Assembly (NCBI GenBank): GCA_947503885.1
Contig: CANNFD010000012.1
Span: 1 to 63,043 of the forward strand
Direction: 5' to 3'
Source: an uncultured Olleya sp.
GTDB lineage: Bacteria; Bacteroidota; Bacteroidia; Flavobacteriales; Flavobacteriaceae
DNA length: 63,043 nt
Below, piece by piece: positions 7,139 to 25,150 of this stretch; positions within the stretch are counted from its first letter, which is position 1, and each line of letters opens with the position of its first letter. Position numbers and translations under genes: made by a program. The notes under the pieces were generated by a model. The model was not told the DNA's origin and did no database searches. It saw only the letters and a list, made by a program, of their open reading frames with translations.

Positions 7139-8446
7139 CTAACCTCCAGCAGCTAATTGCATTAAAATTGTACAACCAATTGCAGCTAAAGTACCTACAG
7201 CATAACCAAACACAGCTAACAATACACCAACAGTTGCTAATGAAGGGTGAAAAGCAGATGCTACAATAGGTGCAGATGCTGCACCTCCAACATTTGCTTG
7301 ACTTCCAACTGCAAGGAAAAAGTAAGGTGCTTTAATTAATTTAGCAACTAATATTAAAAGCAATGCATGAATACTCATCCAAACAAAACCAATAGCTATT
7401 AAACCTAAATTGTCAAAAATAGAACTGATATCTATTTTCATCCCGATAGTTGCTACTAATATGTATATAAACACACTACCAAATTTACTAGCCCCAGCAC
7501 CTTCATAATTTTTTGCTTTGGTAAAAGATAGTAATATGGCAATAACTGTAGCAATACTAATCATCCAGAAAAAAGTACTATCTAAAAAGGTAAATGTGTT
7601 TTTTAAAGTTGCAGACTCAATTCCTGCGATAAGCTTTCCAAAAAACGGAGCTAAGTTGTCGGCACATAAATGTGCTACACTTACAGTTCCAAAAGCTATA
7701 GCTGCCATTAGCATTAAATCTGTCAATGTTGGTGTACGTTTAACACTTTCTGTAAAAGTGGACATTTTTTCTTTTAAAGCTTCAATTGACGATGTGTCAG
7801 CTTTTAACCATTTATTAATTTTTGCTCGTTTACCTATTCCAATTAATAGAATAGCCATCCAAACATTAGCGACTACAATATCTACAAAAACCATTTTACC
7901 ATATTCTGCTTGATTATATCCGTATATTTCAAGCATTGCGGTTTGGTTTGCACCTCCACCAATCCAACTTCCTGCTAGCGTTGAAAGTCCTCTCCATACT
8001 GCATCCGCTCCAAAACCACCTACGGTTTCAGGTGACACAGCAGCAACTAATAAAATAGCGATGGGACCACCTATTACAATACCTATAGTACCCGTAAAAA
8101 ACATGATTAACGCTTTCCAACCTAAATTAAAAACTGCTTTTAAGTCTATGCTTAAAGTCATTAAGACTAATGCAGCAGGTAATAGATAACGACTTGCAAC
8201 AAAATATAAGTTTGTTTTATGTTTTACAACTTCTCCAGCATCACTAGTGGTCGTCCATTCTGGAGCTATTAATCCAATTGTGGTTAATATTGCTGGCAGC
8301 ATGTAAGCCATAAATAATCCAGGTATTATTTTATAAAATTTTTCCCAAAACCCTCCTTTTAAAGATTCTGTGTAAAAAATAAAACCTAATGCTAGCATTA
8401 GTACTCCAAAAATAATAGTATCGTTTGTAAATAGTGGTTCACTCAT
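7139..8446 (-). CDS. DUF819 family integral membrane protein (putative transporter)
   Basis: The 435-aa protein has about ten to twelve hydrophobic helices. It carries DUF819 (YjcL-like) signatures: an early SLKGGFWEKFYKIIPGLFMAYMLPA segment, the mid-protein GGLSTLAGSWIGGGANQTA-type glycine-rich loop, and the C-terminal loop AVGSQANVGGAASAPIVASAF. These paired glycine-rich re-entrant loops recall transporter substrate sites, but no substrate is known. The 5' side faces the 430-bp gap holding the twin small-RNA candidates. The ATG at 8446 gives a normal N-terminus. Confidence 0.85.
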   Translation of the reverse strand: MSEPLFTNDTIIFGVLMLALGFIFYTESLKGGFWEKFYKIIPGLFMAYMLPAILTTIGLIAPEWTTTSDAGEVVKHKTNLYFVASRYLLPAALVLMTLSIDLKAVFNLGWKALIMFFTGTIGIVIGGPIAILLVAAVSPETVGGFGADAVWRGLSTLAGSWIGGGANQTAMLEIYGYNQAEYGKMVFVDIVVANVWMAILLIGIGKRAKINKWLKADTSSIEALKEKMSTFTESVKRTPTLTDLMLMAAIAFGTVSVAHLCADNLAPFFGKLIAGIESATLKNTFTFLDSTFFWMISIATVIAILLSFTKAKNYEGAGASKFGSVFIYILVATIGMKIDISSIFDNLGLIAIGFVWMSIHALLLILVAKLIKAPYFFLAVGSQANVGGAASAPIVASAFHPSLATVGVLLAVFGYAVGTLAAIGCTILMQLAAGG

Positions 8447-8513
8447 AATGTTAGTTTATTGATATCGCAAAATAATCAAATAAACCGATTATTAAAAGGT
8501 TTAAAAACAAAGT

Positions 8514-8530
8514 TTGGCACAGCATTTGTA
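8514..8530 (+). promoter_or_regulatory. Sigma-54-like -24/-12 promoter of small RNA copy A
   Basis: TTGGCACAGCATTTGTA contains TGGCAC-N5-TTGTA, which is GG-N10-GT against the sigma-54 consensus TGGCACG-N4-TTGCW (GG-N10-GC). The predicted start, about 12 nt downstream, falls at 8541, exactly where the outer stem of copy A begins. The same box with the same spacing precedes copy B. The deviation at the second base of the -12 element (GT for GC) lowers certainty. Confidence 0.55.
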
Positions 8531-8540
8531 ATATATAAAG

Positions 8541-8656
8541 CGTAATCAATTATGATGACTTTCTACTACTAGGTGTGGTTACCTAAAAAGAAACGAGTAA
8601 AGATTACATTTGGTTGGTTAGTATGAAAAAGCATCATTTTTAATGATGCTTTTTCT
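8541..8656 (+). ncRNA. Structured small-RNA candidate, tandem copy A
   Basis: This ~115-nt element folds as outer stem GTAATC (8542-8547) / GATTAC (8602-8607), then an internal loop with TATGATGAC on the 5' side and CGAGTA on the 3' side. An inner stem TTTCT (8560-8564) / AGAAA (8589-8593) and hairpin TAGGT / ACCTA (8570-8585) with loop GTGGTT follow. The tail TTGGTTGGTTAGTATG leads into terminator AAAAAGCATCATT / AATGATGCTTTTT. Copy B keeps loops and tail but replaces three helices with compensatory pairs. No reading frame of note lies inside. Orientation is taken from the sigma-54-like box. It may belong to a described flavobacterial RNA family, but I cannot assign one from memory. Confidence 0.75.
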
Positions 8657-8708
8657 GTTTAATTATTTTAATAAATCTTTAACATTGTTAGCTGTTAGTT
8701 TTTTTGAA

Positions 8709-8725
8709 ATGGCACGACAATTGTA
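8709..8725 (+). promoter_or_regulatory. Sigma-54-like -24/-12 promoter of small RNA copy B
   Basis: AATGGCACGACAATTGTA carries TGGCACG-N4-TTGTA, matching the sigma-54 consensus at every strong position except GT for GC at -12. The predicted start near 8736 coincides with the base of the outer stem. The GG dinucleotides of the two boxes are 195 bp apart. Confidence 0.6.
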
Positions 8726-8735
8726 ATATTAAGAA

Positions 8736-8853
8736 TGTAGTTACTTATGATGACTTTTACGATAGGTGTGGTTACCTAAGTTAAAACGAGTAGTAACTAT
8801 CATATTTTTGGTTGGTTAGTATGAAAAAGCATCCTTTTTAGGATGCTTTTTCT
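8736..8853 (+). ncRNA. Structured small-RNA candidate, tandem copy B
   Basis: The same architecture as copy A. The outer stem is TAGTTACT (8738-8745) / AGTAACTA (8792-8799), extended by ATG/CAT across one bulge. Conserved internal loop TATGATGAC / CGAG is followed by inner stem TTTTA (8755-8759) / TAAAA (8782-8786) and hairpin TAGGT-GTGGTT-ACCTA (8763-8778). The tail at 8807-8833 is identical to that of copy A over 27 nt. The terminator is AAAAAGCATCCT / AGGATGCTTTTT. Outer stem, inner stem and terminator all differ from copy A by paired changes, which supports function at RNA level. It ends 24 bp before the stop of the convergent hydrolase gene. Confidence 0.75.
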
Positions 8854-8876
8854 ATTTATATATTATTATGTAGTCT

Positions 8877-9803
8877 TTATTTTTTTATAAATGCGATAAT
8901 ACTATCTAATAACCCTATTGCTAAAGGTCTTTGTGACTCGTTATATGATTTAGAGTTTTCAAGATCATCTCCTTCAATAGTTACTAAAACATGATTCATA
9001 TTTTTAATAATTTTTAACTCAGCAGTAGTAGCTGCTTCATGTAATTGTTCAGCTTCAGCTTTACTAACCTGTAAATCTTTAGTCCCGTTAATAATAAATG
9101 TTGGCAGATTTAAATTGCTAATTACCTCTGTTGGATTGTATTTCATCCAACTCATCATAAAACGTTGTGTTTCAATATTAAAAATAGAGGAGAGTGCAAG
9201 TGGGTAATCAGTAGTCGTTTTTCCTGTTTTTAAAACTTTAAAGACTCGTTTTGTATCTTCGGTAAACTGTGGTGCAGTTTTTTCTACTTGTTCTAATATT
9301 ACATCATCAATACTTTGTCCTGCTCCAGCTAAAGATATAAAACCATCTGCTTTGTCTTTTGCTGCCAACATACCAACTAAACTACCTTGGTCGTGTCCCA
9401 AAATATATATCTTATTGTATTTATTTTGATTTTTAAAATAATTAATTACAGATATGGCATCGGTAACAAAATCGTCAAACTTAATAGAATTGTCAACATT
9501 ATTCTGACGGATCTGTTTTACAATACGTTTGTCATACCTAAAAGATGCTATATCATTTTTAGACAATCCAATTGCCAATTTTTTAATATTATTAGTTTTT
9601 AAAAAATTTTGATTACCATCTCTATCTGTAGGTCCATAGCCTGCAATAAGGATTACTAAATTTGGTTTTTCAATAGTATTTGGAAATAATAACGTTCCAT
9701 TTACATGTTTATTAATTGTAATTTCTTGACTAGAATAATTTGTGTCCTGAGCAATTGAAGAAATTGAAATAATTGCTAACAGAATTAGAAAGTGTATCCT
9801 CAT
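8877..9803 (-). CDS. Secreted alpha/beta hydrolase with Asp in the nucleophile position
   Basis: This 308-aa protein has a signal peptide (to about residue 19, SIAQ). It has the alpha/beta hydrolase layout: oxyanion region IAGYGPTDRDGN (~53-64), nucleophile elbow GHDQG at 136-140, acid Asp243 in INGTKD and His271 in MNHVL. Related peptidase-like hydrolases carry GHSEG or GHSQG; here Asp138 replaces Ser. This resembles haloalkane dehalogenases (GHDWG) only at that residue. The enzyme may use Asp chemistry, or may have lost esterase activity. Upstream are a sigma-54-like box, a standard -7 box and a double dyad at 9925-9996. Confidence 0.85.
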   Translation of the reverse strand: MRIHFLILLAIISISSIAQDTNYSSQEITINKHVNGTLLFPNTIEKPNLVILIAGYGPTDRDGNQNFLKTNNIKKLAIGLSKNDIASFRYDKRIVKQIRQNNVDNSIKFDDFVTDAISVINYFKNQNKYNKIYILGHDQGSLVGMLAAKDKADGFISLAGAGQSIDDVILEQVEKTAPQFTEDTKRVFKVLKTGKTTTDYPLALSSIFNIETQRFMMSWMKYNPTEVISNLNLPTFIINGTKDLQVSKAEAEQLHEAATTAELKIIKNMNHVLVTIEGDDLENSKSYNESQRPLAIGLLDSIIAFIKK

Positions 9804-9825: not shown

Positions 9826-9842
9826 TTCAAATAGAGTGCCAT
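9826..9842 (-). promoter_or_regulatory. Sigma-54-like box upstream of the alpha/beta hydrolase
   Basis: Read on the minus strand: TATGGCACTCTATTTGAA, that is TGGCAC-N5-TTGAA with GG-N10-GA spacing. The predicted start would be near 9815, about 12 nt before the ATG at 9803. It resembles the two boxes of the small-RNA copies but departs from consensus at -12. Confidence 0.4.
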
Positions 9843-23656: not shown

Positions 23657-23746
23657 TGGCGTTACCACAAGGGTCGCGCTTTACATTATATCTTTTTTTG
23701 CCATATATGGCAGCAAAAAAAGGATGCCATTTCAATCGCTAACGCA
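23657..23746. repeat. REP-like palindromic element
   Basis: GCGTTA at 23659-23664 pairs with TAACGC at 23740-23745. Inside, ATCTTTTTTTGC pairs with GCAAAAAAAGGAT (one bulge) around the perfect palindrome TGCCATATATGGCA. It fills almost the entire gap between the PPK2 and peptidase genes. It resembles, from memory, a repeat seen in many flavobacterial genomes that reads GCGTTA...GGATGCC...TAACGC. No second copy was seen in this window. Confidence 0.6.
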
Positions 23747-23752
23747 ACCATC

Positions 23753-25150
23753 ATGAAACAACTAGCAATACTACTAACACTATTACTATCAATAAACGTA
23801 ACAGCACAATCAGACCAAGACGTATTAAAAACCATTTATAGTCAATCCTTAACTAACGGTAAATCTTACCAATGGTTAGACCATTTGTCAAACCAAATTG
23901 GAGGACGACTATCAGGATCCGTAAATGCAGAAAAAGCAGTCCAATACACCAAATCCGAATTAGAAAAACTAGGCTTAGATAAAGTCTGGTTACAAGAAGT
24001 TATGGTTCCAAAATGGGAGCGTGGCGCAAAAGAAGTAGCACATTTTACCTCAAAAAACACAAAGTTTGATGTTAATATATGTGCATTAGGAGGCTCTGTA
24101 GCAACCCCAAACTCAGGATTAGAAGCAAAAGTAATAGAAGTTAAAAGCTTTGAAGAGTTAGAAAAACTAGGAGACAAAGTAAAAGGAAAAATAGTATTTT
24201 TTAATGGCGCAATGAATCCTGAATTAATCCAAACTTTTGAAGCCTATGGCGGATGTGCAAAACAACGTTATGCAGGTGCTTATGAAGCAGGAAAACTTGG
24301 AGCAGTTGGCGTTATTGTACGCTCATTAAATTTACGACAAGACGATTTACCACATACAGGAAGTATGGGATATATGGATTTGCCAAACCACCAACGTGTG
24401 CCATCTGCAGCAATAAGTACAAATGATGCCAATAAACTATCAGAAGCCTTAAAAAAAGACGCAAATTTAAAATTCTATTTTAAACAAAGCTGTGAGCAGT
24501 TTGAAGACGTATTATCTTATAATGTAATTGGAGAAGTAACCGGTAGCGAGTTTCCAGATCAATATATGATAGTCGGTGGACATTTAGATTCTTGGGATTT
24601 AGGAGACGGATCGCATGATGACGGTGCTGGAGTCGTGCAATCTATGGATGTTATTAGATTATTAAAACAAAGCGGTATAAAACCAAAACGTACCATTCGT
24701 GTTGTATTATTCATGAACGAAGAAAACGGGTTACGTGGCGGTAAAAAATATGCAGAAGAAGCATTACGTAACAACGAAAATCATGTCTTTGCTCTAGAGA
24801 GTGATTCTGGAGGGTTTACACCTCGAGGATTTAGTTTTGATTGTAGCGAAGCTGCATTAAATAAAGTATTAAGTTGGGAGTCGTTATTCAAACCCTACTT
24901 AATTCATTATTTCGAAAAAGGATATAGTGGTGCAGACATTGGTCCATTAAAAAATGAGCATATTGTATTAGTAGGTTTACGCCCAGATTCACAACGCTAT
25001 TTTGATCACCATCACGCTGCAAACGATACGTTTGATGCAGTAAATAAAAGAGAGCTTGAGCTTGGTGCAGCAACTATGGCTAGTTTAGTTTATCTGTTTG
25101 ATAAGTATGGTACAGGGGATATCCCGCAGGTTAAACAGTTTAAAGATTAA
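23753..25150 (+). CDS. M28 family zinc peptidase with PA domain
   Basis: The 465-aa protein has a signal peptide to about residue 18 (NVTAQ). An N-terminal helical region and a PA insert (~115-240) precede the M28 di-zinc aminopeptidase domain. The metal ligands are visible in GGHLDSWDLGDGSHDDGAG (His, Asp), NEENGLRGG (Glu), ESDSGG (Asp) and FDHHHAANDTFD (His). It is secreted and probably removes amino acids from peptides (carboxypeptidase Q-like layout). The gene lies 2 bp before a VOC protein gene, so they share an mRNA. Confidence 0.93.
   Translation: MKQLAILLTLLLSINVTAQSDQDVLKTIYSQSLTNGKSYQWLDHLSNQIGGRLSGSVNAEKAVQYTKSELEKLGLDKVWLQEVMVPKWERGAKEVAHFTSKNTKFDVNICALGGSVATPNSGLEAKVIEVKSFEELEKLGDKVKGKIVFFNGAMNPELIQTFEAYGGCAKQRYAGAYEAGKLGAVGVIVRSLNLRQDDLPHTGSMGYMDLPNHQRVPSAAISTNDANKLSEALKKDANLKFYFKQSCEQFEDVLSYNVIGEVTGSEFPDQYMIVGGHLDSWDLGDGSHDDGAGVVQSMDVIRLLKQSGIKPKRTIRVVLFMNEENGLRGGKKYAEEALRNNENHVFALESDSGGFTPRGFSFDCSEAALNKVLSWESLFKPYLIHYFEKGYSGADIGPLKNEHIVLVGLRPDSQRYFDHHHAANDTFDAVNKRELELGAATMASLVYLFDKYGTGDIPQVKQFKD

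Follow-up and report, generated by a model that had tools for sequence, protein, structure and literature searches.

Although Flavobacteriaceae are among the major groups of marine bacteria, their small RNAs (sRNAs) are little known, and a 430-bp gap (8446 to 8877) in the genome of an uncultured Olleya sp. raises the question of what is encoded by the two tandem elements that it houses. The window, i.e. the whole stretch of DNA that was analysed, comprises 63,043 nucleotides (assembly GCA_947503885.1, contig CANNFD010000012.1), and the genome to which it belongs is referred to here as the source genome. A preliminary description, made from the letters alone, had proposed twin stand-alone small RNAs; the promoter class, the spread across the family, the kink-turn-like loop and the tail shared with clpB are absent from that description and are presented in the following.

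Two Predicted Tandem sRNA Genes

The gap is bounded by a divergent DUF819 gene and a convergent alpha/beta hydrolase gene, which confirm its previously claimed length, and all stems and motifs that had been quoted for the two copies are present at their positions. The features of the locus are:

7139-8446, minus strand: DUF819 gene, divergent, left flank of the sRNA array
8514-8529, plus strand: sigma-54-type -24/-12 promoter of copy 1 (TTGGCACAGCATTTGT), predicted +1 at 8541
8541-8656, plus strand: predicted sRNA gene copy 1 (P1, internal loop, hairpin, tail, terminator), supported by covariation; match of covariance model R1 at 8539-8656
8542-8547 and 8602-8607, plus strand: P1 of copy 1 (GTAATC and GATTAC), from sequence, alignment and covariation
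8551-8559, plus strand: kink-turn-like bulge strand TATGATGAC of copy 1 (UAU-GAU-GAC), partner CGAGUA at 8594-8599
8570-8585, plus strand: hairpin UAGGU-GUGGUU-ACCUA of copy 1, loop GTGGTT at 8575-8580
8610-8622, plus strand: tail TTGGTTGGTTAGT of copy 1, proposed pairing or protein-binding module
8625-8655, plus strand: intrinsic terminator hairpin of copy 1, arms 8625-8638 and 8642-8655
8710-8723, plus strand: sigma-54-type promoter of copy 2 (TGGCACGACAATTG), predicted +1 at 8736
8736-8853, plus strand: predicted sRNA gene copy 2; match of model R1 at 8734-8853
8738-8745 and 8792-8799, plus strand: P1 of copy 2 (TAGTTACT and AGTAACTA), from sequence and alignment
8746-8754, plus strand: kink-turn-like bulge strand TATGATGAC of copy 2, partner CGAGTA at 8787-8792
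8763-8778, plus strand: hairpin UAGGU-GUGGUU-ACCUA of copy 2, loop GTGGTT at 8768-8773
8808-8820, plus strand: tail of copy 2
8823-8852, plus strand: intrinsic terminator hairpin of copy 2, arms 8823-8835 and 8840-8852
8877-9803, minus strand: alpha/beta hydrolase gene, convergent, right flank of the sRNA array

Each RNA gene is approximately 116-117 nt long, and the starts lie 195 bp apart. In a search of the source genome, copy 1 and copy 2 share 80% identity over 138 query bases, the 34-nt tail region being 97% identical, and no third copy was found in that genome, where short terminator-like matches only occur. The matches of model R1 are not independent evidence, since R1 was built from copy 1 and its relatives. 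The terminator arms are 100% complementary in both copies, three pairs of the copy 1 terminator show two-sided changes among the 25 distinct Olleya rows, and the copy 2 terminator may also end the convergent gene at 8877-9803. As the next gene is convergent and each copy has its own terminator, a riboswitch or leader was rejected, in line with the earlier view that neither copy is the leader of a downstream gene. The covariation described below, the promoter, the T run, the lack of an Rfam match and the convergent gene all speak for stand-alone RNAs, as had been proposed, and both RNAs are presumably regulatory.

A Conserved Structure on the Plus Strand

The element is present in all 10 Olleya genomes searched, with 2-4 copies in tandem in each, and the total of 26 copies forms alignment A1 (25 distinct rows). 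From A1, RNAalifold recovers unaided P1, a 3-bp stem, the inner stem, the hairpin and the terminator, i.e. the named structure and one more pair, with changes on both sides in 7 of 31 pairs. The named structure (30 pairs, 25 distinct rows) pairs in 98.9% of 749 cells and has two-sided changes in 30 cells, as compared to a shuffled mean of 7.2, with 0 of 500 shuffles reaching 30, a test that is inflated by the relatedness of the copies. For this reason the slid structures are the weightier control, which give 0-7 two-sided cells against 30, bearing in mind that a structure derived from A1 itself is favoured over its slid versions. The covariation among the 26 copies is strong, and the shared loops and compensated stem differences that had been seen between the two copies are real.

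One-sided changes give G-U pairs when the plus strand is taken as the RNA (46 of 779 cells) but would turn into A-C mismatches if the minus strand were, and this settles the plus strand as that of the structure. The folding z-score is better on the minus strand for both copies, but the G-U changes fit the plus strand, and an RNA from the antisense strand was therefore rejected. The mean probability of the consensus pairs over the 26 copies is 0.81 when tail and terminator are left out, and the minimum-energy fold of copy 1 alone on the plus strand differs from the consensus structure.

The internal loop (A1 columns 14-22 and 58-64) consists of UAY, three variable bases and GAC opposite CGA and GUA, and has in Olleya the signature of a kink-turn, with a short C stem, a 3-nt bulge, tandem G-A/A-G pairs, an NC stem and C-C at the 3b.3n position. 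The GA of the bulge strand is kept in 26 of 26 copies and that of the opposite strand in 24 of 26, two first copies (L010 and L013) having AUA instead. A sarcin-ricin-type internal loop was ruled out, since GA/GA is constant and the three positions of the bulge are not. According to the available part of a published study, 3b=C goes along with kink-turn folding in Mg2+, and the rule predicts the same for the Olleya loop (PMC4382518). In other genera a loose kink-turn pattern is found in 23 of 57 copies, and hence the kink-turn is not the common denominator of the family.

A Sigma-54-Type Promoter and Candidate Activators

Each copy had been described as having its own promoter-like box and terminator, and both were found, with the box being of the sigma-54 rather than the sigma-70 class. 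When the GG of the sigma-54 boxes is set to -25/-24, the predicted +1 positions are 8541 and 8736, which are the start sites that had been given earlier. TGGCAY-N5-TTG precedes 25 of the 26 Olleya copies at the distance of a sigma-54 promoter, and in other genera 31 of 34 tail-bearing copies, at 27 loci that were picked by a covariance model containing no promoter. The strict pattern used for counting consists of the sigma-54 box, 60-90 bases and then TTGGTTGGTTAG; among 20 weaker model hits that this promoter-plus-tail pattern does not list, 12 carry the box, at 55-93 bases from a recognisable downstream tail, in one the box is followed by an altered tail, and the remaining seven show no box.

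In the window, TGGCAYN5TTG occurs four times, one of these within a long frame, against 0.82 expected from shuffles, and 0 of 100 shuffles reach four. Two further features bear on sigma-54 control:

9828-9841, minus strand: sigma-54-like box in front of the convergent alpha/beta hydrolase gene, at 24 bases from its start codon
21569-22732, plus strand: response regulator with a receiver domain and an AAA+ sigma-54 activator domain

Given the first, control by sigma-54 may extend to either side of the array. The source genome encodes one rpoN and four strong sigma-54 activator domains (PF00158), one of which is that of the response regulator; no DNA-binding domain was found in the latter by Pfam, and it is a candidate activator of the sRNA array. 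The extended box TTGGCAYN5TTGY occurs 14 times in the source genome (reversed control, seven), seven times inside longer frames, and the other seven boxes include those of the sRNA, of secreted- or lipoprotein-like genes, and of a pair of nearly identical 63-residue genes (L223 and L236) that by eye resemble cold-shock-domain genes. A palindrome, TGATATCA, lies in a longer conserved stretch between the sRNA promoter and a divergent gene at 15 of 66 loci, upstream of the first copy, e.g. at L060, L063, L068 and L097.

Distribution and Synteny in Flavobacteriaceae

The search of flavobacterial genomes with a covariance model, which had been suggested as a check, found relatives well beyond Olleya. 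The promoter followed by the tail UUGGUUGGUUAG is present in 101 of 397 Flavobacteriaceae genomes and 67 of 237 genera (reversed-pattern control, 0), a count from which copies with other spacing are missed and which includes at least one coding false hit (G067, by eye). In a sample of the phylum, the strict pattern occurs in 5 of 395 genomes, all of them Flavobacteriaceae (5 of 41), and is absent from the 354 sampled genomes outside the family. With the covariance model alone (E up to 0.01), 200 of the 397 Flavobacteriaceae genomes are marked; this count is inflated by terminators and was dropped, because its weak end takes in bare terminators, as seen from minus-strand hits.

A DUF819, hydrolase, AlkB or DUF4369 neighbour lies within approximately 1.5 kb at 50 of 57 family loci, and 43 of the 50 genomes from which these loci were taken keep at least one of the four Olleya neighbours. 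The kept synteny, together with the single locus in the source genome and a promoter and pairing that are under selection, argues strongly against a repetitive or mobile element (REP- or MITE-like), for which the near-constant tandem spacing of approximately 189-199 bp in Olleya could be taken as a sign, and a gene remnant fits no better, as no open frame is kept and 3 of 26 copies no longer have the ATG of TATGATGAC; an origin of either kind is highly improbable. A small ORF was likewise rejected, its start codon not being kept among the 26 Olleya copies.

Across the family, the loop GUGGUU and the tail stay while the bodies change. Among 82 distinct copies, all of which were collected by the tail and 30 of whose loci were chosen by the promoter pattern, the hairpin reads GTGGTTAC in 69 and GTGATTAC in four and is missing from nine, and a T run follows the tail in all 82; another group has a different stem around GGUU. 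No difference in the tail occurs among the 26 rows of A1 or among the 41 of A2, in which the rows from other genera had been collected by the tail. At two loci (L285 and L293), the hairpin AAGGG-GUGGUU-CCCUU and the same tail stand behind a TAAATTTG box in place of the sigma-54 promoter; read by eye, this box is TAnnTTTG-like, which would be of the primary-sigma type according to the available part of PMC9723704.

A comparison of the window to Rfam 15 returned only a tRNA and Flavo-1, both outside the sRNA element, and for positions 8400-8900 at E up to 10 the best match has 26.9 bits against a cut-off of 55, while five related loci gave no match. A known Rfam family, including Flavo-1, which had been named for checking, was therefore rejected at the gathering score. 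No description of the sRNA family was found in the literature searched, which had most subscription papers and supplements outside its reach; Rfp36 and the candidate sRNAs of F. columnare, as far as the accessible part of the report shows (PMC5395568), are possible published counterparts.

The Tail in the 3' UTR of clpB

In a search for the complement of the tail, clpB surfaced as a second carrier. The 3' UTR of Olleya clpB reads GGTTGGTTAGT directly before the terminator in 9 of 10 genomes (nine loci shown), and the identity of ClpB in the source genome was confirmed by Pfam. With up to three mismatches, the clpB tail pattern occurs in 40 of 299 family genomes (control, 0). Among 20 loci opened, clpB adjoins the tail in 18, with the matched end of clpB 26-58 nt upstream of it, while L248 is a coding false hit and L253 is without clpB. 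A sigma-54 box within 160 nt before the tail was found at 0 of the 18 clpB loci. The clpB tail and the sRNA occur together in 24 of the 40 genomes as compared to 54 of the other 259, a comparison that ignores kinship and in which the 40 include the false hit L248. Tail-like sequences also stand before a terminator after the apparent 3' ends of non-clpB genes at L278, L281 and L289.

Upstream of clpB (20 genomes, loci L258-L277), the strict TGGCAY box was found in 0 of 20, and TGGTAAGN4TTG, which has the same spacing and is sigma-54-like, in 20 of 20. The palindrome GACN5GTC occurs there at least once in 20 of 20 genomes and twice, 32 bp apart, in 18 of 20, and the pair before the sigma-54-like box is a candidate for the place where the activator of a chaperone regulon binds. 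GACN5GTC was rejected as an activator site shared by clpB and the sRNA, being found before 0 of 66 sRNA loci. With no strict TGGCAY box at clpB and no GACN5GTC before the sRNA, clpB and the sRNA genes are probably served by different activators. In F. psychrophilum, the accessible part of a published list of sigma-54 (SM4) promoters includes clpB and the regulatory RNA Rfp36, and the sigma-54 regulon is given there as ClpB, Skp, exported proteins and one RNA, Rfp36 (PMC9723704).

The position of the tail directly before a terminator, also after clpB and a few other gene ends, would suit a mere termination or 3'-end stability module, with RNAs that act by their variable bodies or not at all. 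Against this speak the 12-13 bases kept across dozens of genera, which would exceed the expected need of a terminator, the GUGGUU hairpin, which is also kept (73 of 82 copies, counting GTGATTAC), and the 10-mer GTTGGTTAGT, which occurs only 10 times in the source genome, so that few terminators carry it; such a module is quite unlikely to be the whole explanation.

Candidate Targets and Proposed Mechanism

The exact 10-mer complement of the tail, ACTAACCAAC, has 95 non-self hits among 121 in the genomes searched, against 88 for its reverse, and is not clearly commoner genome-wide than the latter. In 17 of 84 non-self hits opened (11 were left unopened), it lies up to 75 bases before a start codon. 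By ortholog clusters, ACTAACCAAC falls in a start region in 12 of 58. Dinucleotide-matched words do so in 3 of 84 (P 0.0014) and other permutations in 90 of 3,104 (P 1.7e-7); the start regions rest on crude gene calls (ATG, at least 60 codons), and at least one cluster, L126, looks spurious. Over 404 start regions, the tail as a whole gains nothing in duplex energy on dinucleotide-shuffled tails, since energies as good as its own were reached by 81 of 200 of these and by 20 of 200 plain-shuffled tails, and a preference of the tail for signal-peptide genes was not significant (25 of 200 shuffles). AACC adjoins the ATG of two candidate targets, both type IX cargo. One encodes a DUF11/CHU_C protein, and a gene whose product resembles it at the N-terminus is preceded by a comparable site in two further species (L113 and L183); the other encodes an FG-GAP protein that carries a Por secretion tail. 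A Flavo-1 RNA (23668-23753, minus strand, 59.7 bits) lies antisense, directly before a peptidase-like gene (23753-25150, plus strand, M28 type by eye), whose start region ranks second among the 404 as a duplex partner of the sRNA tail.

Taken as a whole, the locus is best explained, and rather probably so, by sigma-54-induced sibling sRNAs that repress mRNAs via pairing of the GGUU tail. To the structure, promoter class, distribution, synteny and clpB link established by computation, this proposal adds inferred expression, pairing, targets and direction of regulation. Judging from the promoter, RNA polymerase with sigma-54 would read each gene when an enhancer-binding activator fires, and would stop at the terminator of that gene. 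The RNA would fold into a stem, in Olleya a kink-turn-like bend, and the GUGGUU-loop hairpin, leaving the tail UUGGUUGGUUAGU free beside the terminator. GGUU of tail and loop would pair with AACC around the start codons of targets, most likely secreted or envelope proteins, and block their translation, and tandem copies would provide a higher dose. The clpB mRNA, ending in the same tail, could be the source of a further RNA belonging to this regulon, and sigma-54 stress signals would thereby act on both chaperones and surface load.

The tail beside the terminator could equally be a protein site. On that basis, the RNAs may be decoys or docking sites, with the GUGGUU loop and the GGUUGGUU tail bound by an RNA-binding protein of the RRM, cold-shock-domain or kink-turn kind and the array acting as a dose-tuned, CsrB-like sponge. 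The GGUU word recurs in loop and tail while stems get replaced, there are several copies per locus, Hfq was not found in the source genome, the kink-turn signature has 3b=C, and the two genes that resemble cold-shock-domain genes by eye also have sigma-54-like boxes, all of which would suit a decoy. The enrichment of the tail complement in mRNA start regions is, by contrast, not predicted by a pure sponge, the kink-turn pattern is not general elsewhere (loose pattern in 23 of 57 copies in other genera), and we know of no GGUU-binding protein here, so that a decoy is the less likely, indeed an unlikely, account of the locus.

Beyond repression by the sibling sRNAs, the tail shared with clpB hints at an RNA arm of the stress response that is undescribed. 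In its full form, a portable 3' module (the GGUU tail and terminator, often with the GUGGUU hairpin) would couple chaperone production with the repression of envelope and secreted proteins, without Hfq, in the sigma-54 stress response of Flavobacteriaceae, and would be carried by the tandem sigma-54 sRNAs, at least one RNA type that has a primary-sigma-type box (L285 and L293) and the clpB 3' UTR; this is a tentative reading, somewhat less likely than not. With its conserved synteny, its recognisable promoter class, its copies in dozens of genera and its connection to clpB, the sRNA locus can be put to the test directly, the questions being which stress fires the promoters, which activator is used, what protein stands in for Hfq, and what surface proteins come under control.

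Comparison With Known Systems

Bacteroidota, the phylum of the FopS hosts, are not known to have Hfq. In the source genome, no Hfq was found (0 of 1) by a search that finds Hfq in 5 of 14 controls. OmrA and OmrB control outer-membrane proteins, with a seed at the 5' end and use of Hfq, unlike the array here, in which the 3' tail is conserved and Hfq was not found. In the available part of the source, OmrA/OmrB of Escherichia coli are siblings encoded in tandem that agree at their ends and diverge in the middle, and tandem siblings with shared ends are also what the array offers, a likeness of description (PMC4211561). Flavo-1 (Rfam RF01705) is, like the element, a small RNA of flavobacteria and has one copy in the window, but the sRNA element does not match RF01705.

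Qrr genes are sigma-54 dependent, and the Qrr sRNAs need Hfq. The array resembles them in its sibling sRNAs and in sigma-54-type control, here predicted from the promoter, and differs in that the genes are scattered in Vibrio and tandem here, again a likeness of description. Several Qrr siblings are switched on in Vibrio via LuxO, which is of the response-regulator type, as the accessible part of the source has it (PMC4211561). FopS/GibS of Bacteroides thetaiotaomicron, which act with RbpB, are multicopy paralogous sRNAs, one of them derived from a 3' UTR; the FopS sRNAs, with 14 paralogues, primary-sigma promoters and a seed in the 5' region, pair beside the start codons of envelope-protein mRNAs, according to the portion of the report available (PMC11697453). 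The likeness to FopS lies in paralogues, with 2-4 copies in 10 of 10 Olleya genomes, and in a tail that is also present in the clpB 3' UTR, whereas sigma-54 promoters, the tandem array and the invariant part, which here is the 3' tail (A1 and A2) rather than a 5' seed, set the array apart, FopS being compared by description.

Closest by family is Rfp36 of the fish pathogen Flavobacterium psychrophilum, which, as far as the available text goes, is also a stand-alone regulatory RNA that has a sigma-54 (SM4) promoter and shares its regulon with ClpB (PMC9723704). Likened by description, Rfp36 may or may not be homologous to the sRNA, and if it is, published expression data would be tied to the sRNA at once. 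The array is assigned to neither FopS nor Qrr, as the place of the seed differs and Hfq was not found. By analogy, FopS and Qrr may serve as working models, and the arrangement would then work like FopS combined with Qrr-style sigma-54 control, as far as both are described in the accessible parts of the sources (PMC11697453; PMC4211561).
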